From: Gemmatimonas phototrophica
GTDB taxonomy: Bacteria; Latescibacterota; UBA2968; UBA8231
DNA: 64,000 bases
Direction of reading: 5' to 3'
Assembly: GCA_945861755.1 (NCBI GenBank)
Contig: CAMAVQ010000008.1
Coordinates: forward strand, 1-64,000
Notes under the pieces: model-generated
What the model was told of the DNA's origin: nothing
Seen by the model: only the letters and a program-made list of their open reading frames with translations
The model's database searches: none
In this document: in pieces, positions 16,855-61,915 of the stretch
Layout of the letters: each line of letters opens with the position of its first letter
How positions within the stretch are numbered: the first letter of the stretch is position 1
Program-made: the position numbers and the translations under genes

Positions 16855-16941
16855 TCTCTCCTCCTGTTTTTTCCCTTGAGCATTGGTCAAAATAACGCTA
16901 ACTTGCTCTGCTGCGCCAAGAGACTTTTTACCCTTTTTCCT

Positions 16942-18843: not shown

Positions 18844-18854
18844 AAGGAGTTGCC

Positions 18855-22963: not shown

Positions 22964-22974
22964 CGTCTCGCCTT

Positions 22975-24162: not shown

Positions 24163-24176
24163 CGCTCATCCCTCCT

Positions 24177-27971: not shown

Positions 27972-28748
27972 ATGTGGAGCGAAGACCAACTTGCCCATTT
28001 CCATACCTTTGGCTTCTCCCTTCAGCCTCAACTCTTCCGACCTGACGAAATAGCAGCGACCACCAGCACCGCTGAGTCCCTCTGGGAAGAGGTCTTGGGC
28101 CGTCTCCCAAAGGGCGAAGAGGCCATACACATTGTCCCTTTTGTCGAACTGCGGGCCCAGCTGACGCAGCTGCTCGAAGATGACCGCATCTACCAACCCC
28201 TGGTCCAACTCATGGGGGCGGATTTCGTCTGGTCCGGCTCCGAAGGCAACCGGGGGTTTGCACCCGGCCGCACGGCCCACCACTGGCACGCCGACCGGCC
28301 GGGCGAACCGGAACTGGACTATCTGCGGGTAAAGGTCATGATCTACCTCGATAGGCAGCAAAAGGATACCGGCGCCTTCCGGGTCATCCCAGGTTCCCAT
28401 CGCCTGCCCCTGCACCAGGATCTGCAACCCTTCCAGCACCGTCATAGTGACAGCGATCCGACCTTCTTCGGTTTAACCGGCGACCAGGTCCCCTGCTGCG
28501 CGGTCGAGACCCGACCCGGCGATGTGGTGTTCTTCAACCAAAGCCTCTTCCACGCCGTCTATGGCAAAACCGGGCGCCGGCGCTTTATCGCCCTCAAGTT
28601 TGCCTCCAGGCCGGCCAGCGCTGCCCACCTCACCTCCCTGGCCCAGTGGTCTCCATATATCTTCGAGCCTCACCAGAACTTGGTACACCATCAGAGTCAA
28701 CGCATCAGCCGCATGGTGGAGGGCTTGGTTGAGCTTAAAACTGGATAA
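27972..28748 (+). CDS. Phytanoyl-CoA dioxygenase (PhyH) family protein
   Basis: ATG after AGGAGG; HHWHADRPGEPELDY (HxD), QKDTGAFRVIPGSHR, FFNQSLFHAVYGKTGRRRFIALKF. Confidence 0.9.
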   Translation: MWSEDQLAHFHTFGFSLQPQLFRPDEIAATTSTAESLWEEVLGRLPKGEEAIHIVPFVELRAQLTQLLEDDRIYQPLVQLMGADFVWSGSEGNRGFAPGRTAHHWHADRPGEPELDYLRVKVMIYLDRQQKDTGAFRVIPGSHRLPLHQDLQPFQHRHSDSDPTFFGLTGDQVPCCAVETRPGDVVFFNQSLFHAVYGKTGRRRFIALKFASRPASAAHLTSLAQWSPYIFEPHQNLVHHQSQRISRMVEGLVELKTG

Positions 28749-28811
28749 ACAATACGCTGGACTTGCCCCGGCTTGCTTGACGCCTTCGCCGTTGGGAAAA
28801 ACGGGGGATCT

Positions 28812-30767
28812 TCATATCTGCATGCCCACGTAGATGATGTTGCCGCTCTCCCCGGTGATGAAATCCACCAGGGTCCAAAAGCCCGAACAAGTAATCTGCC
28901 CCAGGATCAACCCGAGAAAAATGGGCCGCAAGCGGCGGTACAGCCCCACCCCGCCGTACTTCAGGACCAGGGCCTTGAGCGACCAGCCGATCAGGATGCT
29001 GAACCAGGTAGAGCTGATCATGTAGGTGGCGCCGATGGGAAAGCCCAGGTAGTGCACCGGCCACCACAAATAACGCTGCCGCGCGTACATCAGCAACCAC
29101 ATGACCACCGCGCCGATGCCGGCGAAGAGGAAGCGCGGCGCCACCACCGCAAAGTCGGCAAGCGGGTTGAGCGGATTGGCCACCTTGTAGGCCGCGTCGT
29201 TGTGGATCAGCTGGCCCAGCAGGTTGTAGAACCACCAGTGCAGGTTGATGCCCCCGTAGGTGTACCCCATCCAGATCAGCGCCCACACCGAACTGCCCAG
29301 GGTCACCCCGATGGCCAGCAGCATGGCCCAGAAGAGGGGCCGGCCCCGCACTCCGCCGGCATCGGCCAACTTCATGCCGTTGATGGCCGAGGCCATGACC
29401 ATAGTGCGCATATCCCCGGCCCAACTGAAGGTGAAGCCCAGGGTGGCCAGGCCGGACGGGGTCAAGTAGTCGGTGCCCAGGGCGCTGACCACGAAGGGCT
29501 GGGCGGTCATCTGGGCCCGGGCGAAACCCAGGCCACCTTCGGCGACGATGCGCGCCAGGCCGTAGAAGAGGGCAAAGGCTACCAGCAGGAAGAGCAGCAC
29601 CGCCCCCGGGGGCAGGCCGGCCAGCCACAGCCAGCCGGCGGCGTAGAGCGAGCCACCGCAGAGTATGAGAAAAGCCGCCCGGTAGGAGAGGATCTCGTCC
29701 CTGTCCTCGGCGGCATCGGGCCGCCCCAGGATCCGGCGTGCCACCTGGCGCAGATGGCCGCGGCCGGTCCACAGACCGAATCCCACCAGCGCCAGCATGG
29801 CCCCCATCCCCTGGTAGGAGACGCTCATCGAGCCCTCCATGAACAAATCCTGCCGGCCCGGCAGGGTGTAGCCCAGAGTGTTCTCCACCGCCATCTGCAC
29901 CTGAGTCAGCAGGTGGAAGAGCCAGATGCTCATGCCCACGTCCAGGCTGAGGAAATAGGCCAGGCCCATTACCGTGAAACTGATGAACAGGTGCAGGATC
30001 ATCGAATTGTGGAAGAGGGGCAGATACGGGCTGAACTGCAGGGACGGGATGAAGGGGAAATAGTGGTTGAGGCCGCGCGTGCTGAGCGCCAGGAAGGCCA
30101 CCCCGAAGCCGGCCCACATCAGCGGGTTCTTCAGCAGCGGCCCCACCCGGGTGCCGGGCGCCCCCTCCTGGGCCAGGTCCATGGGCAGCTGTACCAGGGG
30201 AAAAGTGAGCCGCTCGTGGTCCACCCATTGCCTGCGGATGAGCACCATGAGGGCGATCATCATCAAGTGGACGGCGACGATGAAGGAACACCAGGCGGCG
30301 ATGGGCACGGCCCAGGCGCCCCAGGGGATGGGCGTGTCCTTGGGCAGACCCTCGAAGAAGTACTTGATAGCTTCGGGGTCGTGGGGCACCAGCCAGGTAC
30401 GCACGTAGGGCTGGAGCAGTTCGGCCCAGTTGTTTTCGGGGGTGGCGTAGTAATAGACCGCCGGCAGCATGGGGATGAGGTTGGCGGTGAACCCCCAGCT
30501 GGGGATGGCCGAGGCGATGAGCAGCATGACGTACACCGTCACCAGCTCGGCCTGACTCAACCCCCAGGAACGCTTGAGCCCCTTGAGCAGCGGATTGAGC
30601 AGCCCGAGGACGATGAAAAAGAGAAACACCGCGCCGGCAGTGATGTAGTCGGAAGACATGCCGGCGGTGTTCATGACCAGGAGCGCGCAGGGGAAAACCG
30701 CGCCGATCACCAGACACAGCAGGGCGCCCACCACCAGCGCGCGCAACCGGAAAGCTCCTCCTAGCAC
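28812..30767 (-). CDS. DUF6785-like multi-pass (OPT-like) membrane protein
   Basis: 651 aa; FTANLIPMLPAVYYYATPENNWAELLQPYVRTWLVPHDPEAIKYFFEGLPKDTPIPWGAW; TM-rich; paralogous to 16942..18843. Confidence 0.8.
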   Translation of the reverse strand: MLGGAFRLRALVVGALLCLVIGAVFPCALLVMNTAGMSSDYITAGAVFLFFIVLGLLNPLLKGLKRSWGLSQAELVTVYVMLLIASAIPSWGFTANLIPMLPAVYYYATPENNWAELLQPYVRTWLVPHDPEAIKYFFEGLPKDTPIPWGAWAVPIAAWCSFIVAVHLMMIALMVLIRRQWVDHERLTFPLVQLPMDLAQEGAPGTRVGPLLKNPLMWAGFGVAFLALSTRGLNHYFPFIPSLQFSPYLPLFHNSMILHLFISFTVMGLAYFLSLDVGMSIWLFHLLTQVQMAVENTLGYTLPGRQDLFMEGSMSVSYQGMGAMLALVGFGLWTGRGHLRQVARRILGRPDAAEDRDEILSYRAAFLILCGGSLYAAGWLWLAGLPPGAVLLFLLVAFALFYGLARIVAEGGLGFARAQMTAQPFVVSALGTDYLTPSGLATLGFTFSWAGDMRTMVMASAINGMKLADAGGVRGRPLFWAMLLAIGVTLGSSVWALIWMGYTYGGINLHWWFYNLLGQLIHNDAAYKVANPLNPLADFAVVAPRFLFAGIGAVVMWLLMYARQRYLWWPVHYLGFPIGATYMISSTWFSILIGWSLKALVLKYGGVGLYRRLRPIFLGLILGQITCSGFWTLVDFITGESGNIIYVGMQI

Positions 30768-30793
30768 CCCGCAGCTCCCGGTAAGGGGCTTGC

Positions 30794-33358
30794 TCAGTAG
30801 GCCAGCGAAACAACCTTGAGCACGTTTTCGCGCCCAACGCGAGCGCCCTTCACCTCGGTATCGATACTCAGCCGAGCGTAATACACTCCCGGCGGCGCGA
30901 GGCGGCCCCCAGCGTCGCGGCCGTCCCAGCCCATGGCATAGGCTCCAGTGCTCAGTGACCGCTGCTCGACCAAGGCACGCACCAGGCGGCCTGCCAAGTC
31001 GTAGATGTGCACCTGGACCGGGCTGTCGTCGCCCACCCGCACCACCTTGAAATGGAACACCGCCTGCTCGTTGATTCCGTCGCCGTTGGGAGTGAACAGG
31101 GCCGGCACCACCTCGACCTGGTCGATCAAAGCGACACTCCTGAAGGCGCCAACCAGGGTGGTGGTGTTGCCGGCGACGGCGGGATTGGCGTCCCCTGGAT
31201 CGACCCGCTGCCAGGATCCCGAGCCTCCGGCGCGGTGCTGCAGGGCGGCGTGTAACACCGCCCCTGTCGAGTAGAGGGCAGTGCGGAAATCGAGGCGAAC
31301 CAACTCAGACCCAGCGGCCGGGCCGATGAGCGGGAAGCTCAACAACAGGCTGTCGCCGGCGGTGGGCAACTGCTCCACTCCCTCGACCCCAGCCAGCTGG
31401 TCTTGGCTGCCGGCGTACAGGCCGGCGTATTCGAGGTTCATATCGGGCGGGGCCACCAGCAGCAGTTGGTCGAAACCTGGATCAATGCGGTCAAAGCTCG
31501 GACGCACGTACAGTGAGAAGACCCGCTGGCTGCCCAGGGTATCCACCAGGACCGGGGAGACCTCGCCCACCAGGCTCTGGGCCACCGGATCGGCAAAATG
31601 CAGGCGCAGGGAGTGCAACTCCGCACTGGTCTCCAGATCGGCGGAACGCAGGGTGACCTGCACCTTGAGGAATTCGCGCGGGGAAGGCGAGGTGATGGAG
31701 CTGCCGGAGGGGTCGGTGTACGGCTCGCTCCAGCCGCTCCAGTCGTTGCCGGGCACCTCTTCGGCCACTACCTCGCCTTTGAAGACGGAGAGCAGTTTCT
31801 TGTACTCACCCTCGGTGACCTCGGTGCCGTCCTTCTTGAAATAGTGCTGCACCTCGGCCAGCTGGTCGCCGGTGCGGGTCTGGATCAGCAGCTGGGTGCC
31901 CGGCGGGGTGATGGCGTCCCAATCAATGGTGAGCAGGTTGCGGCTGCCCCCCAGGCGGATCAGGTCGGACTCCATAACCACCTCGGGCTGCACCCCCTCG
32001 CCGTAGAGTTGGACCTCGCTCAGGTCGATGGACGCCCCACCACCACCGGCGCCGGTGCCGGTGGCGTAGAGCGTCCATTTGAGGCGGAAGAAGCGGGCTT
32101 TGACCGGGTCGAAGTGGTTGCCTTCGAAGCGCACCCCGCCGCGGATGGTCTGCCGGCGTTCGGCGGCCACCCTCCACTTGAGGGTGCCATCGGCGGCCCT
32201 GGCCCCGTCGGAGAATTCGAGATTGTAATCCCCGAAGGTGGTGTGCCCCGGGCCATAGGCCAGGCGCTGGCTGTCGATCCAGAAGAAGGAGCCCAGATCG
32301 AAGAAGACCTCGCGGTCGTTCTCGGCCCCCAGGGAGACCACCCCGACGAAGGGCCGGGAAAAACTCTCTAGATCCCCGTCCATGAAGCCGCCCAGGCTCA
32401 GGGTCTGGAGCGGGGCGCTGGCCGTCCCCCCGCGCGCCAGGGTGCCGCTGAGGATCTCGTCCCCCTCGGTCCATACCTCCAGCTCGGCCAGGCGGGGCCG
32501 TTCGCGGCGAAAGTAGTGGATACTGCCCTGGCGCTCGGCGGGCAGATCCCGATAGATGTCCAGGTCCACCTGGATCTCCCGGCCGTCGGCCAGGCGTTTG
32601 TAGTACTCCACAGCTCCCTGCTCCCCGGCGGCCAGGACTGCGTATTCTTCCTGGGTGACCTCGCGGCCACGGCCAAAATCGCTGCCATTCACCACCACCT
32701 GCACCAGGCGCAGTCCCTCGCTCCGTACTTCCGGATTCTCCCCCTGCAGGTCGACCTCAAAAAGGCGCTGGCTCTTGTTGGGCTGCAGCAGGCGCATCAC
32801 CGTCTTGTACTCCGGAGTGGTAGCCCCCACCACCCGGGCCGGCTTGGTGCCATCGGAGACCAGCACGTCGAAGAGCAGAAAGGGATCGCCCAGGTCCTCA
32901 TCGACGAACTTGAGCACGATTTTCTTGGCAAAAACGAAGCGTCCTAGGTCGACGGCGAACCACCACTGGGCGGCCAAGTCCACTCCCTCGCTGGGCGGGG
33001 AGGGCTCCCAGTAGGTGGCGGGATCCCCGTCCAGGGCCAGGGGCACCCCCTGGCGGTTGGAGCCGGCCTGCACCGCGTCGAGCAGGGTCAATTCTTCGGG
33101 CTCCTTCTTGGCCAGGGCGCTGGGGGTATAGAGGCGCAGGTAGTCGACGATGTCGGCGGTGGCGTTGATGTTCTTGCGCAGCTGGTGGGCCCGCACCCCG
33201 CCTTCGGCGGTGAACTCCAGGGTGCCTGGGGCGTACGTCCAATTCTGCCAGTGGCGGCTGCTGTTGACCACCACCTGGTCGCCGCTCAGCTGATGCCCCT
33301 GAGCCAGGGCCTGGCCGGCCAAGATCCAGGCCGCCAGGATGCCGCTCCACTTGATCAT
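30794..33358 (-). CDS. Giant secreted discoidin-like protein, family I, FlgD-like C-terminal tail (A)
   Basis: Signal peptide MIKWSGILAAWILAGQALAQ; WWFAVDLGRFVFAKKIVLKFVDEDLGDPFLLFDVLVSDG; C-term VVPALFTPNGDGINEQAVFHFKV. Confidence 0.75.
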   Translation of the reverse strand: MIKWSGILAAWILAGQALAQGHQLSGDQVVVNSSRHWQNWTYAPGTLEFTAEGGVRAHQLRKNINATADIVDYLRLYTPSALAKKEPEELTLLDAVQAGSNRQGVPLALDGDPATYWEPSPPSEGVDLAAQWWFAVDLGRFVFAKKIVLKFVDEDLGDPFLLFDVLVSDGTKPARVVGATTPEYKTVMRLLQPNKSQRLFEVDLQGENPEVRSEGLRLVQVVVNGSDFGRGREVTQEEYAVLAAGEQGAVEYYKRLADGREIQVDLDIYRDLPAERQGSIHYFRRERPRLAELEVWTEGDEILSGTLARGGTASAPLQTLSLGGFMDGDLESFSRPFVGVVSLGAENDREVFFDLGSFFWIDSQRLAYGPGHTTFGDYNLEFSDGARAADGTLKWRVAAERRQTIRGGVRFEGNHFDPVKARFFRLKWTLYATGTGAGGGGASIDLSEVQLYGEGVQPEVVMESDLIRLGGSRNLLTIDWDAITPPGTQLLIQTRTGDQLAEVQHYFKKDGTEVTEGEYKKLLSVFKGEVVAEEVPGNDWSGWSEPYTDPSGSSITSPSPREFLKVQVTLRSADLETSAELHSLRLHFADPVAQSLVGEVSPVLVDTLGSQRVFSLYVRPSFDRIDPGFDQLLLVAPPDMNLEYAGLYAGSQDQLAGVEGVEQLPTAGDSLLLSFPLIGPAAGSELVRLDFRTALYSTGAVLHAALQHRAGGSGSWQRVDPGDANPAVAGNTTTLVGAFRSVALIDQVEVVPALFTPNGDGINEQAVFHFKVVRVGDDSPVQVHIYDLAGRLVRALVEQRSLSTGAYAMGWDGRDAGGRLAPPGVYYARLSIDTEVKGARVGRENVLKVVSLAY

Positions 33359-33372
33359 CGCCTCGTCCTGTC

Positions 33373-35958
33373 TTAATAGACCAGCGCGATGCGCCACAGC
33401 AGGCTGCTGCGAGACACATCAGCACCCTCAGTGTCGGCATCCAGGCTCAACCGAGCCAGGTAGATTCCCGCCGGGGTCAGCCCACCCTGCCCATCGCGCC
33501 CGTCCCAGAGGACCCGGCGGCGCCCGGTCCCTACCGATTCACCGACGCTTTCCATTCTTCTCACCAGGCGCCCTCCCAGATCGCGGATCTCGACCACCAC
33601 CGGACTGGTGTCGCCCAGCAAGACCACAGAGAATTCAAGTACCACCTGGTCGTTGATCCCGTCCCCGTTGGGGGTGAAGAGCGGGGGCTCCACTTGGACC
33701 TCGCCCAGCAGCTCCTTGCGCTGGACCACGCTCACCAAGGTCAGGGAACTGCTCTTCACTCCGGCAAAGGCATTACCCGGATCCACCCGCTGCCACTGGC
33801 TGGCCCCGGCGCCGCTGTGCTGTAGGGCTGCCTCCACTACCGCGCCGGTGGCGAAGAGGGCGCTGTGGAAGTCCACCCGCAGCAGCTCAATGCCGGACTG
33901 GGGGCCGATGGGCGGAAAGGACAGGTGCAGGGAATCGGCCCGACTGGGGATCCGTTCCACCCCGGCCACAGCCAGGTGCTCCAGCTCGGGATTTTCGAAG
34001 TCAGCCGGCCCGCCCGCGTACACTCCGTCCAGTTCCAGCCACATGTCCGGTGGCACCCGCAGCAGCAGCTGGTCGAAACCCAGGTCCGCAACGGCAAAGT
34101 CGGGTTTCACGTAGAGCGAGAAGACCTGGCGCTCCCCCAGGCGTGGCAACTGCACCGGATCCAGCTCCCCCACCAGGCCCTGGGCCACTGGATCGGCAAA
34201 ATGCAGGCGCACCTGGCTCAGGGTGGCGGTGGCCTGCGAATCGTCGGAGAGCAGCACGGCCCTGAGCTTGAGGAATTCGCGCGGCGAAGGCGAGGTGATG
34301 GGGCTGCCCTTCGGATCGGGGTAGGGCTCGGACCAGTCGCTCCAGCCGCTGCCCTCCACCTCGCGGGAGACAATCTCCCCCTTGAAAATAGATAGGAGTT
34401 TCTTGTACTGTGCCTCGCCGACCTCGGTGCCGTCCTTCTTGAAGTAGTGCAGTTCCTCCTGCAGGTCGTCGCCGGTGCGGGTCTGAATCTGCACCTGGGT
34501 GCCTGGAGGCGTGTCGGCTCCCCACTCGATGCTGAGCAGATTGCGGCTGCCCCCTAGGCGGATCAGATCCGACTCCAGCTCCACCTGGGGCTGGTAACCC
34601 TCCCCGTAGAGCTGGATCTCGGCCAGGTTGGCCGTCTGGTGCCCCCCGTTGCTGAGGGTGTACTGCAGCCGGAAGAACCGCGCCTTCAGCGGCGCAAAGC
34701 GGTTGCCATCGAAGCGCACTCCGCTCTGCTGGACCTGTTTGCGGTCCACGGCCCGCGTCCACCTGATACTGCCGTCGGCAGCCAGGGTGCCGTCGGAAAA
34801 ATCCAGGCGGTAATCGGCCATGCTCCCCCGGTACAGGCCCTGGCCGTAACACATGCGCTGGGTATCCACCCAGAAGGTGGAGCCCAGGTCGAAGATCAGG
34901 CTGCGCTCAGGCTCGGCTACCTGCACCACCTTGCCGATGATCAGGTTGGAGTCGGTCACCAGGTCGCCGTCGACAAAGCTGCGCAGGTTGACATCCTCGC
35001 CGCCGGGCAGGGCCATGTTGCCGCCGCGCTCAAAGGTGCCGACCAGCACCTCGTCGCCCTCGGCCCACACCTCCAGCTCGGCCAGGCGGGGCCGCTCGCG
35101 GCGGAAATGACGAATGCTGCCCTGCCGCTCGGGGGCCAGCTGCTCGTACACCGCCTGCCTCACCCCTACCTCCCGGCCACCGCTGAGGCGTTTGTAATAC
35201 TCCACCATTCCCCGTTCGGCCAGGGGCAGGGCCTCGTACTCCTGGCGGCCCATTTCCCGGCCGCGGTCAAAGTCGCTGCCGGTCACCACCACCTGCACGA
35301 AGCGCAGGCCCTCTCCGGCCACCACCGGGTCCAGTTTGGTCAGGTCAATCTCAAAGGTTCGCTGGGTTTTGTTGCGCTGCAGGGTCTGGAGCACGCTGCG
35401 GTACTCGGGGTTGGCCGCCCCGCGCACCCTGTCCGGCCGGGTGCCGTCGGAGACCAGCACGTCGAAGAGCAGAAAAGGATCGCCCAGCTCCTCGTCGACA
35501 AACTTGAGCACGATCTTATCGGCAAAAACCAGGCGGCCCAGGTCCACCACCAGCCACCACTGGGTGGCCAGATCCACCCCGGCGGGCAGGGGGGCGGGTT
35601 CCCAGTAGGTGTTCGCATCCCCGTCGAACAGGGCGGCCACCTGGCCCGGGTTGGAGCCGGCCTGCAGCGCGTCTGACAGGGTGATCTCTTCTGGCTTCTT
35701 GCTGGCCAGAGCCGCCGGGGGGTTGAGTCGCAGGAAATCGACGATATCAGACACGGCGTTGATCTTCTTGCGCCAGTACCGGGCCCGGACTTGCCCCTGG
35801 GGAATCAGTTCGAGGGTTCCAGGAGCATAACTCCAGTTCTGCCAGTGCCGCCGGGCGTTGACCACCACTTGGTTGCCGGCGATCTGATAACCCCGCTCCT
35901 GGGCCTGGGTGGCCACGCCGGCCAATAGCAGAAGCGCTACCACGCCCAGTGCCTTCAT
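33373..35958 (-). CDS. Giant secreted discoidin-like protein, family I, FlgD-like C-terminal tail (B)
   Basis: Tandem paralog of 30794..33358 and 36070..38730; VEPPLFTPNGDGINDQVVLEFSV. Confidence 0.75.
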   Translation of the reverse strand: MKALGVVALLLLAGVATQAQERGYQIAGNQVVVNARRHWQNWSYAPGTLELIPQGQVRARYWRKKINAVSDIVDFLRLNPPAALASKKPEEITLSDALQAGSNPGQVAALFDGDANTYWEPAPLPAGVDLATQWWLVVDLGRLVFADKIVLKFVDEELGDPFLLFDVLVSDGTRPDRVRGAANPEYRSVLQTLQRNKTQRTFEIDLTKLDPVVAGEGLRFVQVVVTGSDFDRGREMGRQEYEALPLAERGMVEYYKRLSGGREVGVRQAVYEQLAPERQGSIRHFRRERPRLAELEVWAEGDEVLVGTFERGGNMALPGGEDVNLRSFVDGDLVTDSNLIIGKVVQVAEPERSLIFDLGSTFWVDTQRMCYGQGLYRGSMADYRLDFSDGTLAADGSIRWTRAVDRKQVQQSGVRFDGNRFAPLKARFFRLQYTLSNGGHQTANLAEIQLYGEGYQPQVELESDLIRLGGSRNLLSIEWGADTPPGTQVQIQTRTGDDLQEELHYFKKDGTEVGEAQYKKLLSIFKGEIVSREVEGSGWSDWSEPYPDPKGSPITSPSPREFLKLRAVLLSDDSQATATLSQVRLHFADPVAQGLVGELDPVQLPRLGERQVFSLYVKPDFAVADLGFDQLLLRVPPDMWLELDGVYAGGPADFENPELEHLAVAGVERIPSRADSLHLSFPPIGPQSGIELLRVDFHSALFATGAVVEAALQHSGAGASQWQRVDPGNAFAGVKSSSLTLVSVVQRKELLGEVQVEPPLFTPNGDGINDQVVLEFSVVLLGDTSPVVVEIRDLGGRLVRRMESVGESVGTGRRRVLWDGRDGQGGLTPAGIYLARLSLDADTEGADVSRSSLLWRIALVY

Positions 35959-36069
35959 AACTCAGTACCCCACCGCTCAGGATTTGTCACGAAACACCCG
36001 CTCTGTTTGGCTAGGTGAGATTACTCTCAGTTGCCTGGGGAAATCGATCAGTAATTGTCTCACGATTCC

Positions 36070-38730
36070 TCAGTACGCCACGGACACCAGGCGCAAGATC
36101 TGTCGGCGGTCTAAGTCTGCCCCTTGGGTATCCGACTCCAGGCGCAGCCGGGCCCCGTAGACCCCGGGCGGCACCAGTTCCCCACGCTCGTTCCGGCCAT
36201 CCCAGCCCACCAGCCGGCGACCGGTACCCCGGGACTGCTGCTCGACCAGACGCCGCACCAGGCGGCCGCCCAGGTCGCGGATCTCGATCACCACCGGGCT
36301 CTGGTCACCCACCAGCACCACCGAGAAATCGAAGCGGGCCTCGTCATTGATCCCGTCTCCGTTGGGGGTAAAGAGTGCCGGCTGCACCTGCAGGTCGATG
36401 ATCACCTCCTTGCGCTGGGCAATGCCCACCAGAGTGGTGGAGTTGCTCCCCACCGCGGCCAGGGCATTGCCGGGCTCCACCCGCTGCCAGAGACCCTCCC
36501 CGCTGGCGCTGTTCTGCAGCGAAGCCTCCAGCACCGCTCCGGTGGAGTACAGGGCGGTCTGGAAGTCGAGACGCAGGGCCTGGCCCGCAGCTGCGGGCTT
36601 GAAGGGCGCGAACCTCAGCCACAGGCTGTCTGGGCTGGTGGGGACCACCACCACTCCCTCTAGGCGCAGCCGGGCCAGGTCCCCAGCCCCGGCGACTAGC
36701 TCATCCTCCTCCCCCTGGTACAGGCCGTCGAAGCGCAGGCGCATGTCGGCGGGAACTTTGAGCAGCAGGCCATCAAAACCCGAATCGCGGGCGGCGAACT
36801 GCGGTTGAATAAAAAACGAGAAAGGCCGCTCTAGGCCCAGCTCCTCCACCTGGAGAGGACTGACCTCGCCGACCAAACTCTGGGCTACCGGACTGGCAAA
36901 ATTCAGGCGGATGCTCCGCAGGGTGGCATGGGTTTGCGGGGAGGATGAGCGGAGGATGGCGCGGATCTTGAGGAACTCCCGGGGCGAGGGCGAGCCAACA
37001 GAACTGCCCTGCGCCTCCTCGTACGTGGTGCTCCAGTCGCTCCAGTCGTTGCCGGGCACCTCCTCGGCCACCACTTCGCCTTTGAAGAGGGAAAGGAGTT
37101 TCTTGTACTGGTCTTCGCTGACCTCGGTGCCATCCTTCTTGTAATAATGGAAAATCTGGCCCAGCTCGTTGCCGGTGCGGGTCTGCAGCAGTACCTGGGT
37201 GCCGGGCGGGGTGTCGGCCTCCCAGCTGATGCCGAGTAGGTTGCGGCTGCCCCCCAGGCGGATCAGGTCCGACTCCAGCACCACCTCGGGCTGATAACCC
37301 TGGCCGTAGAGCTGCAGCTCGGCGATCACCCCCAGATTGGCGGGAAAGGTGGTCAGGTGGGGGGTGTAGCGCATGCGGAAGAAACGGGCCTTGAGCAGGT
37401 CAAAATCATTGCCCTCGCCCACCACTTTGGTCAAGGATTGCTCGCGGTTCACCACCTGTTGCCACTTGAGGCTGCCGTCGGGAGCGCGCGACCCATCCGA
37501 GAAATCGAGCCGGTAATTGGCAAAACGCCAGGAGTGGTAGTTGGTGGGGTTATACGCCATGCGGTGGGCATCGATCCAGTAGAAGGAGCCCAGGTCGAGG
37601 AAGACCTCGCGCTCGACAATGATGGTGCCGCTGATTTCCTGGTTCATGCTGGCGTAGCTGTCGATGTCGCCGTCGACGAAGGTGGCCCCGTTGACTACCT
37701 GAGTGGAGGTGATGAACCCGCCCCGCTCGATAGTGCCGTTGACCATTTCGTCCCCTTCGGTCCACACCTCCAGCTCCGCCAGGCGAGGCCGTTCGCGGCG
37801 GAAATAGCGCACCGTCCCTTGCCTGGCCGGCTCCAACTGGTTGTAGACCTCTTGTTTGACCACCACCTCATTGCCCTCGGCCAGCCGCTTATAGTACTCG
37901 ACAGCACCCCGTTCGCGGGCCACCAGTTGCCCGTACTCCTCCTGCGAGACCTCCCTGCCGCGGGCAAAGTCGCTGCCGTTCACCACTACCTGCACGTAGC
38001 GGGCCCCCAGGCTGCCCAACTCGTTGCCGGCGCCCACCGTCACCGTCCCTCCCCCATCGCTCTGGTCGCGGGCCCCGGTGTCCTCGGCCAGACTGGCGGA
38101 GGCGCCCAGCTCCACTTCGAAGACCCGCTGGCTTTTGTTGCGCTTGAGGGTGCGCAACACGGTCTGGTACTGGGGGCTGGCCGAACCCTGCACATTGCCC
38201 GGCTTCAACCCATTGGAAACCAGCACGTCGAAGAGCAGGAAGGGATCGCCCAGTTCCTCGTCGACGAATTTGAGCACGATTTTCTGGATGAAGACAAAGC
38301 GGCCCAGGTCCACGTTGAACCACCACTGCGAGGCTAGGTCGATGCCCGCCGCCGGCGGGTCCGGCTCCCAATAGGTCGCCATATCTCCGTCCAGCACCGC
38401 CACCACCCCTGCGCGGTTGGAACCGGCCTGCACGGCATCGAGCAGGCTGAGTTCCTCGGGCTTTTTGCCCCCCAGCTCCTTGGGGGGATGGAGGCGGAGG
38501 AAATCACCGATGTCCCGCACTGCGTTGATATTGCGCCGGATCAAGCGCGGGCGCACCGTCCCGTCTTTGCCCAATTCCACCGTGCCGGCCGGAAAACCCC
38601 AGTGCTTCCAGTGGTCGAGCCCGGCCACCACCACCTGATCGGCGGTGAGGCGGTACCCGGTTTGCTGGGCAGGCGCCCCGGCTGCGGCGAGCAGCACCAG
38701 GGCGAGGCTGATTCGGTTCTTCTTTGCCAT
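36070..38730 (-). CDS. Giant secreted discoidin-like protein, family I, FlgD-like C-terminal tail (C)
   Basis: Tandem paralog; QPALFTPNGDGINDEARFDFSVVLVGDQSPVVIEIRDLGGRLVRRL. Confidence 0.75.
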   Translation of the reverse strand: MAKKNRISLALVLLAAAGAPAQQTGYRLTADQVVVAGLDHWKHWGFPAGTVELGKDGTVRPRLIRRNINAVRDIGDFLRLHPPKELGGKKPEELSLLDAVQAGSNRAGVVAVLDGDMATYWEPDPPAAGIDLASQWWFNVDLGRFVFIQKIVLKFVDEELGDPFLLFDVLVSNGLKPGNVQGSASPQYQTVLRTLKRNKSQRVFEVELGASASLAEDTGARDQSDGGGTVTVGAGNELGSLGARYVQVVVNGSDFARGREVSQEEYGQLVARERGAVEYYKRLAEGNEVVVKQEVYNQLEPARQGTVRYFRRERPRLAELEVWTEGDEMVNGTIERGGFITSTQVVNGATFVDGDIDSYASMNQEISGTIIVEREVFLDLGSFYWIDAHRMAYNPTNYHSWRFANYRLDFSDGSRAPDGSLKWQQVVNREQSLTKVVGEGNDFDLLKARFFRMRYTPHLTTFPANLGVIAELQLYGQGYQPEVVLESDLIRLGGSRNLLGISWEADTPPGTQVLLQTRTGNELGQIFHYYKKDGTEVSEDQYKKLLSLFKGEVVAEEVPGNDWSDWSTTYEEAQGSSVGSPSPREFLKIRAILRSSSPQTHATLRSIRLNFASPVAQSLVGEVSPLQVEELGLERPFSFFIQPQFAARDSGFDGLLLKVPADMRLRFDGLYQGEEDELVAGAGDLARLRLEGVVVVPTSPDSLWLRFAPFKPAAAGQALRLDFQTALYSTGAVLEASLQNSASGEGLWQRVEPGNALAAVGSNSTTLVGIAQRKEVIIDLQVQPALFTPNGDGINDEARFDFSVVLVGDQSPVVIEIRDLGGRLVRRLVEQQSRGTGRRLVGWDGRNERGELVPPGVYGARLRLESDTQGADLDRRQILRLVSVAY

Positions 38731-38740
38731 CCAGCTCTCC

Positions 38741-40651
38741 TCAATAGACCAGGGAAACCACGGCTTGGCTGGTGGTGGTGCCCTTGTCCGCCTCGACCTT
38801 CAGCCGCACGATATAGAGCCCTGGTTCCATCAGGTGGCCCTGACCGTCGGTGCCGTCCCAAGGCCGCCAGGAGCGGCCGCTGACTTGGCGGTCAGCGTAG
38901 ATCCGGGCGCGCATCCTGCCCGATAGGTCGAAGACCTCCAGGCTCACCGGCACCCCCCCGGCCAGGTTGAGCAGGTTATACTCGATCAACACCTGGTCGT
39001 TGATCCCGTCGCCGTTGGGGGTAAACGCCGCCGGTGCCAGGCGCAGATCCTGGATGGCCTGGGCATCCAATTCCTCCAGATCCACCCGCAGCGCCTCGCC
39101 CTCCACTAGTTCATCCGCATCCCCCGGGGTCAGGGCCTGGGCCACCTCTTGGGGGCGGGCACTGTTGAAGACCCGGCCGGTGAAGATGGTGCCGTATTTG
39201 AAGATCTCGGCGCGGAAATCCACTTCGATCAGTTCTTCGGTTCCCTGCAGATCGATGGGGGGGATACGCAGGCCCAGGCCGCGCTCGTCCAGGCGCACCA
39301 GTTCGAAAGCCACCGGCTGGCCGCTGATCCGCACTGCGTCCACGCCCTGGGCCCGGGCCGGGGTGTCGATCTCGATGGTATCGAAGCCCAGATCCCCGGC
39401 ATTGAGGCTGGGTTTGATCCGGTAGGTGAAGGAGGTAGACCGGCCAGCCGGGGCGGACAGCGGGGCAATCTCAGCCAGCACCTGGGTGGCCAGCGGCGGG
39501 ATGGACACCGAGAACTGCAGGTAGTCCAGCTGCCCTCCGACGTTCTGGTCCGAGAAGAAATCCGCCTTGAACTGCACATAGCGCCGGGGGCGGGAGGCGG
39601 CCATGGCCGCCTGGGCGGGAGCAACGTCATAGGGCGGCGACCAAAAGTCCCAGTTTTCGGTGTCGTGCGTGGCGCCGGCCTTTTCACCCTTTTCCAGGGC
39701 AGTGTAGGTAGCCAGGATCAGCGGCCGACCCTTGGCGTCGAAACGGGTCCGCTCCTCGCCCCGGAAGGTGTAGCGCCAATAGGTGTTGGGTTCGTTGTCG
39801 TCGCCGCTGCGCATGCCCAACTCAACCCGTGCCCCCGTATCCTGCCTTCCCCCCCAAGTCAGCGAGCCCAGGCTGGCTAGGCTGCCCAGGTCGATGATGT
39901 TGGACACGTACCCGGCAGCGGGCACATATCCCTCCCCGTAGATCTCGAATTCGGCGATCTCCCAGATGCCGCGGGTATTTTCGGGGATCTGGAAGAAAAG
40001 CCGCTGCACCGGCCCGGGCGGCAACTCCAGGTCGATGAGGGGCTTGGTGTTCTCGCGCACATCGTAGGCGATGTCGAAGTCCAGCACCGTGGCCCCATAG
40101 TTGCCCCCGGTGCGAAACTCGCGGGTGCCGTCCTTGAGCGGGTCGCCGTCGTTGGTACCGATGCGGAAACGCTCGATAAAGCGCTCGTCCATAAACTGCT
40201 GGCGGGGGAAGAAGCGGACGCGGCGGATGGGGAAGGGTCCGCCGAACTCAAAAAACATGTTCTTTTCGGCCGGGCCATGTACGGCAAAGTGCCCGTCTCC
40301 CAGATACGCGGTTTCCGGGTCGCGATCGAAGAAGAGGAGGTTGTCCTGGACCTTGGGCTCCCAGCCGGTCCATTCCAACACGTAAAATTGCCCTCCCTGG
40401 TCGATGAGGGTAGGGGTCAGATTAACCGCCGGATCCAGCTTCAGGGGTTCGATGGTGCCCGGCAAGATCGTCAACAGGCGGGATTCACCGTGCTGACCCT
40501 GGGCCGCCGAGGCCCAGGACAGTTGTACGAATTCGTGCGGTACCCCTGGGTCCGGAGGCGGCAGGGTTTCGCCGCCGATGCGATAGATGGTCAACGCCCC
40601 GGCCTGGCCCACCCACCAACTGGCCAGCGCCGCGAAGATCAGCTTTCTCAT
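38741..40651 (-). CDS. Large secreted protein, family II, FlgD-like C-terminal tail (D)
   Basis: MRKLIFAALASWWVGQAGALTIYRIGGETLPPPD; LAPAAFTPNGDGINDQVLIEYNLLNLAGGVPVSLEVFDLSGR. Confidence 0.75.
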   Translation of the reverse strand: MRKLIFAALASWWVGQAGALTIYRIGGETLPPPDPGVPHEFVQLSWASAAQGQHGESRLLTILPGTIEPLKLDPAVNLTPTLIDQGGQFYVLEWTGWEPKVQDNLLFFDRDPETAYLGDGHFAVHGPAEKNMFFEFGGPFPIRRVRFFPRQQFMDERFIERFRIGTNDGDPLKDGTREFRTGGNYGATVLDFDIAYDVRENTKPLIDLELPPGPVQRLFFQIPENTRGIWEIAEFEIYGEGYVPAAGYVSNIIDLGSLASLGSLTWGGRQDTGARVELGMRSGDDNEPNTYWRYTFRGEERTRFDAKGRPLILATYTALEKGEKAGATHDTENWDFWSPPYDVAPAQAAMAASRPRRYVQFKADFFSDQNVGGQLDYLQFSVSIPPLATQVLAEIAPLSAPAGRSTSFTYRIKPSLNAGDLGFDTIEIDTPARAQGVDAVRISGQPVAFELVRLDERGLGLRIPPIDLQGTEELIEVDFRAEIFKYGTIFTGRVFNSARPQEVAQALTPGDADELVEGEALRVDLEELDAQAIQDLRLAPAAFTPNGDGINDQVLIEYNLLNLAGGVPVSLEVFDLSGRMRARIYADRQVSGRSWRPWDGTDGQGHLMEPGLYIVRLKVEADKGTTTSQAVVSLVY

Positions 40652-40665
40652 CTCCGTTCCTTTCC

Positions 40666-42591
40666 TCAGTACGCCAGCGAAACCACGGTCTGGGCCACTG
40701 CCTGCCCTTTGTCCGCCTCCACCTCCAGGCGGAGCACGTAGATCCCCGGGGGCACAGGCCCACCCCCTTCGGCCCGGCCGTCCCATTGCAGGGCGAAGCG
40801 GCCGCTGGCCCGGGTGCCTCCCTCCACCGTCCCCACCCGGCGGCCACTCAGTTCATAGATTCCCAGCCGCACCGGCACTGCCCCGACCAAGTTGAGCAAT
40901 TCGCACTCCACCTCCACTTGATCGTTGACCCCGTCGCCGTTGGGGGTGAAAAGTGCGGGGTCGACCCGCAGCGAGCGAATGGTGCCCACCTCCAGCGAGC
41001 TGAGGCCCACGGTCAGGGTATTGCTGTCCACCAGGCCGTCGGCATCCCCGGCGGTCAGGGGCTGGTGCACCTCGTGCGGGCGCTGGCTGTCGAAGATGCG
41101 GCCGGGGAAAACCGTCCCGTACTTGAAGACCTCGGTGCGGAAGTCGACCTCGACCAGTTCGCCAGTCTGCTGGGCTCCCACCCTGGGCAAGCGCACGGTC
41201 AGTCCGCCCTCATCAAGGTGCACCACCTGGTAGTCGACCGGCACCCCGCTCAGGCGCACGCCCTCTACTCCCAGAGGCCGGGCCGGAGTGTCGATTTCGA
41301 TGCTGTCGAAACCCAGATCCTCCCGCCGCAGCCTGGGCCTGAGTTTGTAGGTGAACAGCGTCGCCGTGCCCGCTTCGGCGGCCAGGGGGATGATCTCGGC
41401 CAGGGCTTCGGTGGCCACCGGCGGGATGGAGACAGCAAATTCGAGGTAATCCAGGCGGCCGCTGGTCTGTTCAGTGGAAGAAAATTCGGCGCTGAACTGC
41501 ACATAGCGCCGGGGTTCTGCCGCTCCCATCGCGGCCCGGCCAGCGCCGAATTCGTAGGCGGGAGACCAGAACTCCCAATGTTCGGTGTCGTGGGTGACGC
41601 CCGCCTTTTCAGCCGACTCCAGTCTGTTGTAGGAGGCCAGAGTCAGGGGTTTGCCCGCCGCGTCAAAACGGCTCCGTTCATCGCCGCGGAAGGTGTAGCG
41701 CCAGTAAGTGTTGGGCTCCTCGTCCTCCCCGCTGCGCATGCTCAGGCTCACCTGGGCGCCCTGGTCCAGGTGGCCCTGCCACGACAACTGCCCCAGGCTG
41801 GCCGGGCTGCCCAGGTCGATCACGTTGGAGACATAACTGGCAGAGGGCACGTAACCTATGCCATAGATCTCGAATTCGGCCACTTCCCAGATTCCCCGGG
41901 TGTTATCGGGGGCCTCAAAGAGCAGGTGGCGAATGGGGGTCCGGGGCAGGTGCAGTTCGATCATGGATTTGGTATTTTCAACCCCTTCGTAGGCCACCTC
42001 GAAGTCAAAGGCCCCGCCCCGACCGCCGAAATTGTGCGTGCGGGTGCCATCCTTGAACGGGTCGCCGTCGTTGGTGCCGATGATGAAGCGCTCGACAAAG
42101 CGGTTGGCGAGAAAGCGCGAGCGCGGGTAGAAGCGGATCCGGTCGATGAGGAAACGCCCCCCCAGGTCGAAGACCACGGACTTGTTCTTGATTACCCCGT
42201 AGTCCCCGCCCCAATCCCCATCGCCCAGGAAGGCGGTATTGGGATCTCCATCGAACATGTCGAGATCGCGCCCAAAGGCCGGATTCCAGCCAATCCAGGT
42301 CAGCGAGAACACCTGCCCGCCCTGCTCCTTGAGCCGGGGTGCCAGATTGACTCCGGGATCTAGTCGCTGGGGGGCGATGGCCTTCTGGGAGACCTGGATC
42401 TGCTCGGTGCTCCCGTACCGCGCGGCCTCGATCGCCGACCAGGGCAACTGGACAAAGTCGAAGGGCGCCTCGAGCTGGGGCGGCGGGATGCCTTCCCCGC
42501 CGATCCGGTAGATGGTGAGGCTGGCGGCCGGCCCTACCATGCCCAGCGAAAGGAGCAGCACCCAGTGCAGCGCAGCTTTTCCGGTGTACAT
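40666..42591 (-). CDS. Large secreted protein, family II, FlgD-like C-terminal tail (E)
   Basis: MYTGKAALHWVLLLSLGMVGPAASLTIYRIGGEGIPPPQLEAPFDFVQLPW; VDPALFTPNGDGVNDQVEVECELLNLVGAVPVRLGIYELSGR; RBS TGGAGG. Confidence 0.75.
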   Translation of the reverse strand: MYTGKAALHWVLLLSLGMVGPAASLTIYRIGGEGIPPPQLEAPFDFVQLPWSAIEAARYGSTEQIQVSQKAIAPQRLDPGVNLAPRLKEQGGQVFSLTWIGWNPAFGRDLDMFDGDPNTAFLGDGDWGGDYGVIKNKSVVFDLGGRFLIDRIRFYPRSRFLANRFVERFIIGTNDGDPFKDGTRTHNFGGRGGAFDFEVAYEGVENTKSMIELHLPRTPIRHLLFEAPDNTRGIWEVAEFEIYGIGYVPSASYVSNVIDLGSPASLGQLSWQGHLDQGAQVSLSMRSGEDEEPNTYWRYTFRGDERSRFDAAGKPLTLASYNRLESAEKAGVTHDTEHWEFWSPAYEFGAGRAAMGAAEPRRYVQFSAEFSSTEQTSGRLDYLEFAVSIPPVATEALAEIIPLAAEAGTATLFTYKLRPRLRREDLGFDSIEIDTPARPLGVEGVRLSGVPVDYQVVHLDEGGLTVRLPRVGAQQTGELVEVDFRTEVFKYGTVFPGRIFDSQRPHEVHQPLTAGDADGLVDSNTLTVGLSSLEVGTIRSLRVDPALFTPNGDGVNDQVEVECELLNLVGAVPVRLGIYELSGRRVGTVEGGTRASGRFALQWDGRAEGGGPVPPGIYVLRLEVEADKGQAVAQTVVSLAY

Positions 42592-42630: not shown

Positions 42631-42668
42631 AAAAAAAAGGAGGGCAGATCAACAGCGATCTGCCCTCC
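42631..42668 (-). terminator. Perfect 12-bp rho-independent terminator downstream of the CBM9-like gene
   Basis: GGAGGGCAGATC (42639-42650) / loop 6 nt / GATCTGCCCTCC (42657-42668); T8 tract on minus strand at 42631-42638. Confidence 0.93.
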
Positions 42669-42697
42669 CAAGCCAACCAAGTCTGCGAATCAGTTGC

Positions 42698-43606
42698 TCA
42701 CTGGTTGAAGGAGGCCTTGATATGGCCCCAGGTATCGTTCTCCACCGCAGTCGGCAGGCGCTCGTTGTCGACCGGGAGCAGGATGAAGTCGCTAAAGGAG
42801 CTGGCATTGCCGAAGATATCCGACTGGCCGCCCAGCACCCACTTGGCCGTGCGGGGATCTTCTGCGGTGGGGCCGTTGTCGTTGTCGACCACCTGCAGAC
42901 CCGCACCGATGATCTCGCCCTCGACAAAGTCGTGGCGCACACTCACCTCGGGACCCTGGTAGTTGAAGTCATCCCAGGAGACGGTGTACCATTCGGCCTG
43001 GAAGGTGGATTCGCTGCCGTGGCTGCCGTTGAGGGTAAAGGAGGTGGCGCAGCACTGGTAGGGCTCTTTGTCGAACCAATCGGCGCTGCTCATCCAGAAC
43101 CAGGACCAGCCGAAGGGAGCCAGGGCCGGCCAGCGGTAGTGGCTGGTCTGGGCCTGGCGGCCGCGGTTGCGCTTGAGTTCCTCGTCGGTCCCCTCAAAGG
43201 CCCAGAAGAAATCGCCGCTGTGGTCGGCATCCAGACCGATCTCGATGCTGTCGTCCCCGCCGCAGCAGCCATTGCCACCCGCGTCGCGGTCCCAGACATC
43301 GTCAAAACGGTCATAGACATAATAGATGCGGTCGAGGTCGTTGTTCCAACCCATGGCGAAGCGGAAGTTCAGGTTGGCAGTGTCGATTTCGCGCCCCACA
43401 TCGCCTTCAGCCACCGAGGTGGAGAAGATGTCGATCCAGTACTCGGCCGGAACCACGTTCCACTCGGAAATATCGCCGTCCAGGCTGGGAAGATGGGTGC
43501 TGGGCCACTGCCAGGCGGCAAAGACTTGTCCTTCGGGAACGTGGGCCGAGGCGGCGGTGTTCAGGCAAAACACCGAGGCGGCGGCGAACAATGCTGCTTT
43601 CTTCAT
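42698..43606 (-). CDS. Secreted CBM9-like protein
   Basis: MKKAALFAAASVFCLNTAASAHVPEG; LPSLDGDISEWNVVPAEYW...RFAMGWNNDLDRIYYVYDRFDD...GDDSIEIGLDADHSGDF; RBS GGAGGAAGG. Confidence 0.65.
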   Translation of the reverse strand: MKKAALFAAASVFCLNTAASAHVPEGQVFAAWQWPSTHLPSLDGDISEWNVVPAEYWIDIFSTSVAEGDVGREIDTANLNFRFAMGWNNDLDRIYYVYDRFDDVWDRDAGGNGCCGGDDSIEIGLDADHSGDFFWAFEGTDEELKRNRGRQAQTSHYRWPALAPFGWSWFWMSSADWFDKEPYQCCATSFTLNGSHGSESTFQAEWYTVSWDDFNYQGPEVSVRHDFVEGEIIGAGLQVVDNDNGPTAEDPRTAKWVLGGQSDIFGNASSFSDFILLPVDNERLPTAVENDTWGHIKASFNQ

Positions 43607-43667: not shown

Positions 43668-43696
43668 AATATATACATGCTATTTGCTAATGTCAA
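43668..43696 (-). promoter_or_regulatory. Sigma70-type promoter for the CBM9-like gene
   Basis: Minus strand TTGACA (43691-43696) - 17 bp - TATATT (43668-43673), upstream of the GGAGG RBS and ATG at 43606. Confidence 0.8.
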
Positions 43697-43702
43697 AAAA
43701 AT

Positions 43703-45439
43703 CTAGTTTTCTCCAATGGGTGTTCCCGTGGCCCAAGGCATGGCGCTCTGCCCCATTCGCCGGCGGCGCGAGGACTGCTGTAACTCGATCGCCTTCGCCG
43801 CCTCGGCAGCGGCCTCCCGCTGCCGTCCCTGGCGCAGGTACACCTGCCCCAATGCCTGGTGGGCCTGGGCGTACGAGGGATCCAGATCGATGGCTGCGGC
43901 AAAGGCGGCCCGGGCGTTTTCCGTCTGTCCGGCCTGGAAATACTCGACGCCGAGATTGTGGCGGGCCTGAGCCAGGCGCGGATCCAGCCGTATCGCTTCG
44001 AGATGCTGGCTGATGGCCTCCTCCCGTTGCCCTCTGACCGAGAGGGCGATGCCCAGGTGGGTGTGGGCCGGCGCCCACTTCGGAGCGATGGCGATGGCCC
44101 GCTGGTGGGCGGCGACGGCCTCCTCGAGCCGGCCGGCGCGGGTATAGGCTACCCCCAACCCGTCCTGTGCCGCGGCCAGCGAGGGGGCCAGGCGGACCAG
44201 GTATTCGCGGGTTTCCACCTCGGATTGGGAGTAGGAGACGTCCGTCCAGGCCAGGAAGACGATGGGAACACCAAAGTACACCAGTTGTTTCCCGGTTTCG
44301 AACAGGTAGGGGAAGGCAGGCCAGCGCTGCTGCCGCAGTTCCAGCCAGGCCCGCCAGCGCGACCTCCACGGGGCCTCCCCGGTGCCCTCTACCCCCGCCG
44401 CCAGGTTCTGCCGGATCTCCTTCTTTCGCACCTTCCACATGAAACCATCGTAATAGTAATGGAGGAAGGCGGAGGTGGCGATCAACACCTTCACCAAGTC
44501 GTAGATGAGGTAGTTCTGGGTGGACCTGGCCACCACCTCCACCCCGCCATAGGCCAGGATCAGCCCCAGGTAGAACAGGACGATGCGGAAACGACCATCG
44601 CGGAACAGGTAGCGGAAAAAGGAAGCGCCCAGCGCCTCGGAACGCTTCAGGACCCCATGGTTGTAGATCCAGACGATGGCGTAGTACTGGATATCGTGGG
44701 CCATGGCGATGATCGCGTAGCCCAGGAGGATATCCTGCAGGACGATATAGGCGTAGTACGAGGTGCCAACGGTGATGGCGGTGATCGCCAATTTGGGCCA
44801 GACGACCGGCAGTCCCTGGCGCCGTTCACGCACGACATTGGCGGCATAGACAAAGGTGATGGCAAGCGCGAAATACCCGACGGCGGTGCCGAAGCGGACC
44901 ACCCATTCGGGCTCGATCCAGGCGTACAGGCCAAAACCATAGCGGTGGCAACGTTCGAGAAAATTGATCAGGTAGTGGGGACTGGCGACAACCACGTACC
45001 CCAGCCAGGCCGCGCTCAACAACCAGTCGAGACGGGCACTGATCCGCGAGGGCCGCCGGCATTTCATCTCGTAGATACGCATGAAGCCGAAGTGCTGCAT
45101 GAAGAAATGCCACAGGTCCCAAAGGGCGAGGAAGATAAAAAAACCCAGATGGCCGTTGAAGACGCTCCAGCCAACCAGCAGGGCAACCAGGATCGGGGTG
45201 ACGAGGAAACGGGCCCGGTAACGGGCAAAAAGCTCCCGCTCTCCGTAGGCGCGCATCAACCCGGGAAGGTGGTGGCCGACGGCAAAAAACGCCAGCACAA
45301 AAAGGGCAATATCGGCAGAAGCGTAGTAATGAGAGGCGAGCAGGAGGACGAAGAGGCAGACTAAAGGTGTGCCGACAAAAAAACACAGATCGGCGGGCCG
45401 ACTGATGATCCACCCTGGGGCCGGGGCAACCCCGCTCAC
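43703..45439 (-). CDS. Multi-pass His-rich membrane protein with C-terminal TPR repeats
   Basis: FAVGHHLPGLMRAY, LWDLWHFFMQHFGFMRIYE, AMAHDIQYYAIVW, FLHYYYDGFMWKVR; C-term TPR units (AAAIDLDPSYAQAHQALGQVYLRQGRQREAAAEA). Confidence 0.75.
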   Translation of the reverse strand: MSGVAPAPGWIISRPADLCFFVGTPLVCLFVLLLASHYYASADIALFVLAFFAVGHHLPGLMRAYGERELFARYRARFLVTPILVALLVGWSVFNGHLGFFIFLALWDLWHFFMQHFGFMRIYEMKCRRPSRISARLDWLLSAAWLGYVVVASPHYLINFLERCHRYGFGLYAWIEPEWVVRFGTAVGYFALAITFVYAANVVRERRQGLPVVWPKLAITAITVGTSYYAYIVLQDILLGYAIIAMAHDIQYYAIVWIYNHGVLKRSEALGASFFRYLFRDGRFRIVLFYLGLILAYGGVEVVARSTQNYLIYDLVKVLIATSAFLHYYYDGFMWKVRKKEIRQNLAAGVEGTGEAPWRSRWRAWLELRQQRWPAFPYLFETGKQLVYFGVPIVFLAWTDVSYSQSEVETREYLVRLAPSLAAAQDGLGVAYTRAGRLEEAVAAHQRAIAIAPKWAPAHTHLGIALSVRGQREEAISQHLEAIRLDPRLAQARHNLGVEYFQAGQTENARAAFAAAIDLDPSYAQAHQALGQVYLRQGRQREAAAEAAKAIELQQSSRRRRMGQSAMPWATGTPIGEN

Positions 45440-55424: not shown

Positions 55425-55458
55425 ATTTCTGGCTGCGAATTCGCGGAGGAAGACGACG

Positions 55459-57135: not shown

Positions 57136-57137
57136 GT

Positions 57138-58769: not shown

Positions 58770-58785
58770 CTTGTTGCTCCTCTTC

Positions 58786-58813
58786 GCTGTTGGCAACCCG
58801 CTGTTGGCAACCC
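58786..58813. repeat. Perfect 14-bp tandem repeat (x2) in a divergent intergenic region
   Basis: GCTGTTGGCAACCC at 58786-58799 and again at 58800-58813. Confidence 0.95.
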
Positions 58814-58884
58814 TATTGATCGCGTATTATTATTGCAGGCCAATTTACGCGAGGCTCCCCCGTTCTGGCAAGCCGAGACCACCT

Positions 58885-61913: not shown

Positions 61914-61915
61914 AC

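Follow-up and report, generated by a model that had tools for sequence, protein, structure and literature searches.

Recurrent cassettes of FlgD-tailed lectin-like proteins and a predicted outer-membrane barrel in Latescibacterota: a possible counterpart of Sus glycan capture

Introduction

In Bacteroidota, type B cargo proteins of the type IX secretion system (T9SS) pair with adjacent PorP/SprF-like barrels, some of them with a TPR-bearing PorE (PMC9143113, PMC12618676); PorP/SprF is 14-stranded (PMC9143113). For Latescibacterota, an early study of single-amplified genomes described rich polysaccharide catabolism and invoked non-specific porins for the outer-membrane step (PMC4454575). In the literature searched, with subscription papers outside the search, we found no paper that mentions either type IX secretion or SusD plus polysaccharide in combination with Latescibacteria, and no mention of the permease family DUF6785. 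Here we analyze six genes in a 64,000-nucleotide stretch of Latescibacterota DNA (contig CAMAVQ010000008.1; the whole stretch is called the window): five genes, E to A, for large proteins with FlgD-like tails (the FLGD family) and one for a DUF6785 permease. They are best read as the downstream portion of a cassette of the "FLGD-BARREL" type, many of which occur in this phylum; in these, FLGD proteins are encoded beside a predicted outer-membrane barrel. The cassettes look like an unrecognized counterpart of the Sus sugar capture of gut bacteria.

Results

Genes were called with a small codon-based gene caller, and protein families were obtained by clustering 41 loci of the window's genome. 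The six open reading frames (ORFs) are co-directional on the minus strand, with successive gaps of 14, 10, 111, 14 and 26 bp from E through D, C, B and A to the permease, exactly as an earlier sequence-only reading of the window had reported. Upstream of E, the minus-strand run extends through five further genes. "BARREL" is our name for a family of ~900 to 980 amino acids (aa) with two copies at 45449-51168, and C6 is a secreted CBM9-like protein.

51209-53410, minus strand: FLGD-family paralog with a FlgD tail, directly upstream of both BARREL genes
48391-51168, minus strand: BARREL copy, 925 aa, modelled; its PDB fold matches are outer-membrane barrels
45449-48394, minus strand: BARREL copy, ~980 aa; predicted outer-membrane beta-barrel family without a Pfam match
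43703-45439, minus strand: multi-pass membrane protein, TPR repeats at its C-terminus
43668-43696, minus strand: promoter-like site TTGACA-N17-TATATT 5' of C6, conserved in orthologs
42698-43606, minus strand: C6, ~300 aa, secreted CBM9-like protein
42638-42669, minus strand: strong intrinsic terminator between C6 and E (14-bp stem, T8)
40666-42591, minus strand: E, 641 aa, FLGD family II; one F5/8-C-like domain and a FlgD/CHU_C tail ending in Y
38741-40651, minus strand: D, 636 aa, FLGD family II
36070-38730, minus strand: C, 886 aa, FLGD family I; two F5/8-C (CBM32-like) domains and a FlgD/CHU_C tail
33373-35958, minus strand: B, 861 aa, FLGD family I; AlphaFold2 model
30794-33358, minus strand: A, 854 aa, FLGD family I
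28812-30767, minus strand: permease, 651 aa, multi-pass permease-like, DUF6785 and DUF6784

Profiles of these families were compared with 78 loci from related genomes, most of them with the label Latescibacterota; many of the loci are orthologs, and adjacency counts are thus not independent. FLGD was followed by BARREL 56 times (29 from family II, 27 from family I), versus 7 cases of BARREL followed by FLGD-II. Further directed adjacencies were FLGD-II to FLGD-I (55), C6 to FLGD-II (17) and permease to FLGD-II (9). With I and II for the FLGD families and PERM for the permease, the recurrent cassettes were C6-II-I-II-BARREL, PERM-II-II-I-BARREL-C6 and PERM-C6-II-II-x-I-BARREL, plus the window's own order. 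The full order BARREL-TPR-C6-II-II-I-I-I-PERM is kept in another species (locus L011), so the arrangement with the permease is not due to chance. A metagenome-assembled genome (MAG) from Baikal keeps the C6-FLGD part in two loci (L009 and L010), and in a third (L076) a FLGD gene is followed by the permease (93% identical).

The same associations were quantified in two complete Latescibacterota chromosomes, which hold ~34 and 39 full-length BARREL genes and 163 and 169 FLGD matches. BARREL had a listed FLGD gene within 10 kb in 29 of 34 and 36 of 39 cases, versus 4.5 and 6.8 expected from circular shifts; these FLGD figures are lower bounds, taken over the best 150 FLGD matches. Of the permease genes, 17 of 42 and 24 of 50 had FLGD or BARREL within 10 kb (6.5 and 9.4 expected), with no enrichment within 4 kb. 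BARREL and FLGD-I distances correlate across loci in small samples (r = 0.85, n = 5; dereplicated r = 0.54, n = 9, p = 0.005). The link between lectin and barrel is the core of the cassette, and the link to the permease is real but loose. We therefore rejected the permease as the core partner: BARREL is near-constant and the permease facultative. The sequence-only reading had coupled the binding proteins to a single permease. Co-occurrence of DUF6785 with FLGD does recur, in several differently arranged loci, but the nearly constant partner is BARREL, absent from that reading.

By profile and by predicted fold, proteins of the A-C type contain the F5/8-C fold. Pfam placed it near residues 100-210 in A (1e-5) and B (3e-8) and more weakly in C; D and E gave a weak match or none but have the tail. 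A profile of 61 relatives, compared with the PDB, matched two separate F5/8-C regions (~82-191 and ~252-392) plus FlgD, and the family I matches included carbohydrate-binding modules of a sialidase, a hyaluronidase and GH89, plus fucolectin. The AlphaFold2 model of B (predicted local distance difference test, pLDDT, 88) matched discoidin/CBM32 tandems, among them neuropilin b1b2, fucolectin and the CBM32 of ZmpB. The discoidin-like segments that the sequence-only reading had seen in three family I paralogs of ~860 to 886 aa are thus supported. Its division into three family I and two family II proteins (~640 aa) also stands, but not as two separate families: family II aligns to the C-terminal two-thirds of family I only, second F5/8-C region included, and because of this the two form one homologous superfamily. 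Family II lacks the first F5/8-C domain, so that D and E carry one such domain and A, B and C two.

All five proteins end in FlgD_ig/CHU_C, with CHU_C over the cut-off in A and E and slightly under it in D, and TIGR04131 under the cut-off. A FTPNGDGIND tail had been ascribed to all five; the motif is exact in B, C and D and varies in A (FTPNGDGINE) and E (FTPNGDGVND). The C-terminal residue is Tyr in 229 of 233 FLGD-family proteins, mostly as -VAY, -VVY or -LAY; proteins that share just the FlgD tail mostly end in -LLR, -LVR or -LLK. This near-constancy suggests that a partner recognizes the extreme C-terminus. The FlgD-tail cluster of the window's genome comprises 45 ORFs, fragments included.

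No Pfam family matched any of 36 BARREL members. The AlphaFold2 model of the copy at 48391-51168 (mean pLDDT 70) is rich in long β-strands, with the C-terminus in a strand; it is good from about residue 210 and low at the N-terminus and in an acidic insert. The PDB fold matches listed for it belong to outer-membrane barrels (MtrB, SlpA, LptD, FimD, CymA, MOMP, porins and TonB receptors), with TM-scores so low that the closest known type is not settled. With zero Pfam matches, including PorP_SprF (PF11751), usher and LptD, we rejected BARREL as a TonB receptor, usher, LptD or PorP at that level. A relationship to SprA was likewise rejected, the BARREL profile having no match in the part of its own genome's SprA gene that was examined, and a viral fold library returned generic barrels only. 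Residues ~530-620 of the modelled copy contain a nearly invariant acidic stretch in the family alignment, DDNDDQDR..PG.DENNDF.SDFNQN..PDYEEPFL..DMNNN..DRFE.D..PDYPY, which resembles a series of calcium-binding motifs set into the barrel.

BARREL occurs in 40 of 65 Latescibacterota genomes; all 26 genomes of the window's family have it, whereas the 22 that represent three other families of the class all lack it. Low-scoring matches in the two complete chromosomes (e.g., G001:C1:5530274-5538899, and in G002) form a divergent subfamily with tandem arrays of three to four copies. The commonest neighbors of BARREL are PPIC rotamases, TPR and LRR proteins. A further family of ~215 to 260 aa (400 aa in L101) lies beside or near BARREL, FLGD or permease genes in loci L108, L117, L118, L123 and L101; several members have a lipobox, and Pfam scans of two members pointed to no clear family.

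In one alternative, the cassettes would build a surface-layer or matrix lattice, with FLGD proteins as a structural coat and BARREL as its foot in the outer membrane, comparable to the Deinococcus SlpA complex. The many paralogs would suit this, as would the SlpA/SDBC barrel, which ranks with the best fold matches of BARREL, and the surface-layer proteins among the weak FLGD matches. We consider this improbable: the 35 to 40 diverged cassettes of each genome point to specificity, not to a single lattice, and CBM32 and CBM9 domains typically bind ligands.

For export, the window's genome encodes a SprA_N match, a C25 protease of the PorU type next to a PorV, and other members of the PorV family. 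BARREL could instead be the export translocon itself, usher-like or LptD/SprA-like, secreting the adjacent FLGD proteins. Such a role has little probability in our judgment. It would account for the cognate pairing and gene order, for FimD and LptD among the fold matches and for the rotamase neighbors, but a SprA gene is already present, the BARREL profile matches neither the examined part of that gene nor the proteins of the PorU/PorV region, and BARREL has no usher or LptD match in Pfam.

The CBM9-like assignment of C6 rests on matches of 10 of 20 members to CBM9_1 at a loose threshold and on a PDB match to CBM9 of xylanase A (E = 1.4e-5). Its TTGACA-17-TATATT site is conserved in two orthologous loci, and the hairpin between C6 and E is kept in orthologous loci while flanking sequence diverges. 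Terminators were found in 14 of 19 gaps between C6 and FLGD, with differing hairpin sequences, in about five locus groups, versus none between FLGD genes (0/83), from FLGD to BARREL (0/44), from the permease to FLGD (0/9) or from BARREL to C6 (0/13). In length-matched gaps, strong terminators followed C6 in 15 of 28 cases, compared with 2 of 230 elsewhere and 0 of 950 shuffles. No promoter-like site was detected in the 46 bp before E or at 28600-36200, and an Rfam scan of the window gave no match. Because C6 is preceded by its own promoter and followed by a strong terminator, it is probably made in excess, with E to A and the permease expressed through terminator read-through or a second, weak promoter. 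Either C6 is overproduced by partial termination, or E to the permease form a new unit that starts in the 46 bp before E.

The permease matches DUF6785 (E = 3e-130, 435 bits) and DUF6784 (E = 3e-29, 102 bits) above the cut-off, and no PDB sequence. DUF6785 was rejected by sequence as a relative of OPT, with no OPT match in Pfam or NCBIfam among 28 members. The window's genome (a 4.39-Mb MAG, 93.6% complete) has 26 DUF6785 matches, and the two complete chromosomes have 44 and 50. Permease neighborhoods include genes for enzymes of sugars and sugar acids, namely enolase-superfamily (MR_MLE), GFO/IDH/MocA and xylose-isomerase-like genes, and also PhyH genes, a list compiled without a genomic background rate. 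The window holds a second such permease with a C6 homologue behind it:

16162-19739, plus strand: second DUF6785 permease (16162-18843), then a C6 homologue (18855-19739), beside a FLGD-II gene (19762-21738, minus strand)

As called, this permease has a ~270-aa N-terminal extension; the FLGD-II neighbor on the opposite strand is 54% identical to E. Elsewhere in the window, three enolase-superfamily (mandelate racemase-like) paralogs lie in a row at 21764-25205, beside a GSDH/DUF7133 protein that carries a FlgD tail of the T9SS type. Genes for FG-GAP/ASPIC-UnbV, TPR, PPIC-rotamase and pentapeptide-repeat proteins cluster at 53565-63535, and the window's genome shows a strong expansion of FG-GAP/ASPIC families.

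Discussion

We tentatively propose, at somewhat less than even confidence, that T9SS-exported lectins dock on a dedicated barrel and capture glycans, with some loci feeding the DUF6785 permease. Proteins A to E would be exported through the Sec pathway and then a type IX-like system, and would sit on the cell surface, held by the FlgD/type-B-like C-terminal domain and most likely docked on the large barrel whose gene lies in their cluster. The CBM32-like domains of A to E, with C6, would bind glycans; solutes would cross the outer membrane, possibly through BARREL, and where DUF6785 is present the permease would take them into the cytoplasm. The computations establish which genes are present and in what order, how far that order is conserved, the folds and paralogy of the proteins, the enriched co-location, the terminator, the conserved tails and the T9SS marker genes. 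From this anatomy we infer not only this route of export, docking and ligand but also channel activity, the direction and substrate of transport and the expression ratio of C6.

Several observations weigh against this proposal. The BARREL model is of moderate quality, with its first ~140 residues and the acidic insert unreliable, and no Plug/TonB_dep_Rec match was found among the 36 members. No carbohydrate-active enzyme (CAZyme) or sulfatase is among the 25 commonest of 69 families in 48 genes near BARREL. A DUF6785 permease directly adjoins a FlgD-tail gene at just 3 of its 26 copies in the window's genome. The strong terminator before E means that E to the permease could be a transcription unit separate from C6. 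The T9SS-like export that the sequence-only reading drew from the tails agrees with the SprA, PorU-like and PorV-family genes, but GldN was not found in that genome, in a search without a positive control. Finally, the cargo gene precedes the barrel gene, which is the order of SprB-SprF and not of SusC-SusD.

This order also favors a reading that shares the same anatomy and follows close behind glycan capture, namely pure adhesin display, with FLGD proteins as type-B-like T9SS cargo, BARREL as their anchor or shuttle, adhesion or matrix building as the function and the permease incidental. Such display is a real possibility, though one we doubt. The type-B/CHU_C-like tails, the near-invariant C-terminal Tyr, the rotamase, TPR and LRR neighbors without common CAZymes, and the Bacteroidota precedent of type B cargo with a PorP/SprF-like barrel and TPR-bearing PorE (PMC9143113, PMC12618676) all speak for it. 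However, BARREL has ~900 aa and no PorP_SprF match, whereas PorP/SprF is 14-stranded (PMC9143113); permeases lie near the cassettes more often than expected and do so repeatedly, in several arrangements; and the CBM9-like C6 with its terminator is left unexplained.

Returning to glycan capture, its fullest form would be a Sus-analogous system assembled from unrelated components: multi-CBM lectins delivered by the T9SS and docked on an undescribed large outer-membrane channel, an excess of CBM9-like binder set by a conserved terminator, and DUF6785 acting as a new family of permeases for sugars or sugar acids, repeated ~35 to 40 times per genome in one Latescibacterota family. We regard this combination as unlikely. 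If glycan capture is the right reading, a globally distributed uncultured phylum would have evolved its own SusCD counterpart, glycan uptake would be explained in organisms described as "non-specific porin" users (PMC4454575), DUF6785 (44 to 50 copies per genome) and an uncatalogued outer-membrane barrel family would gain a first role, and type-B T9SS display pairs would extend beyond Bacteroidota. Each part of the cassette can be expressed and tested separately.

The Sus/SusCD systems of Bacteroidota likewise comprise dozens of diverged cassettes per genome of a surface-binding protein and an outer-membrane barrel, with more than one binding protein per locus and sometimes an inner-membrane permease nearby. 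Unlike them, the Latescibacterota cassettes have a barrel without a Plug/TonB match, binding proteins with T9SS-like tails and no lipobox, cargo before barrel, and no CAZymes among the commonest BARREL neighbors; SusD (PF07980) had no match in the window's genome, and a control matched in Bacteroides. The SprB-SprF and PG1035-PorP pairs (PMC9143113, PMC12618676) resemble the cassettes in setting a CHU_C-like-tailed surface protein beside an outer-membrane barrel, in their cargo-then-barrel order and in nearby TPR proteins. They differ in that BARREL is of ~900 aa without a PF11751 match, FLGD tails end in -VAY, and several lectins accompany each barrel, plus a CBM9-like protein and a DUF6785 permease. 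Family I shares two F5/8-C folds with the CBM32 (discoidin) lectins, but here they lie within a multi-domain protein displayed by its C-terminus rather than on a catalytic enzyme. In malE-type transport operons, the binding-protein gene comes first and a terminator lies behind it. The cassette repeats this succession of promoter, secreted binding protein, strong hairpin and remaining genes, but with a CBM9-like binder, and its later genes encode, in place of an ABC transporter, surface lectins, which may or may not be accompanied by a barrel or a secondary-type permease.

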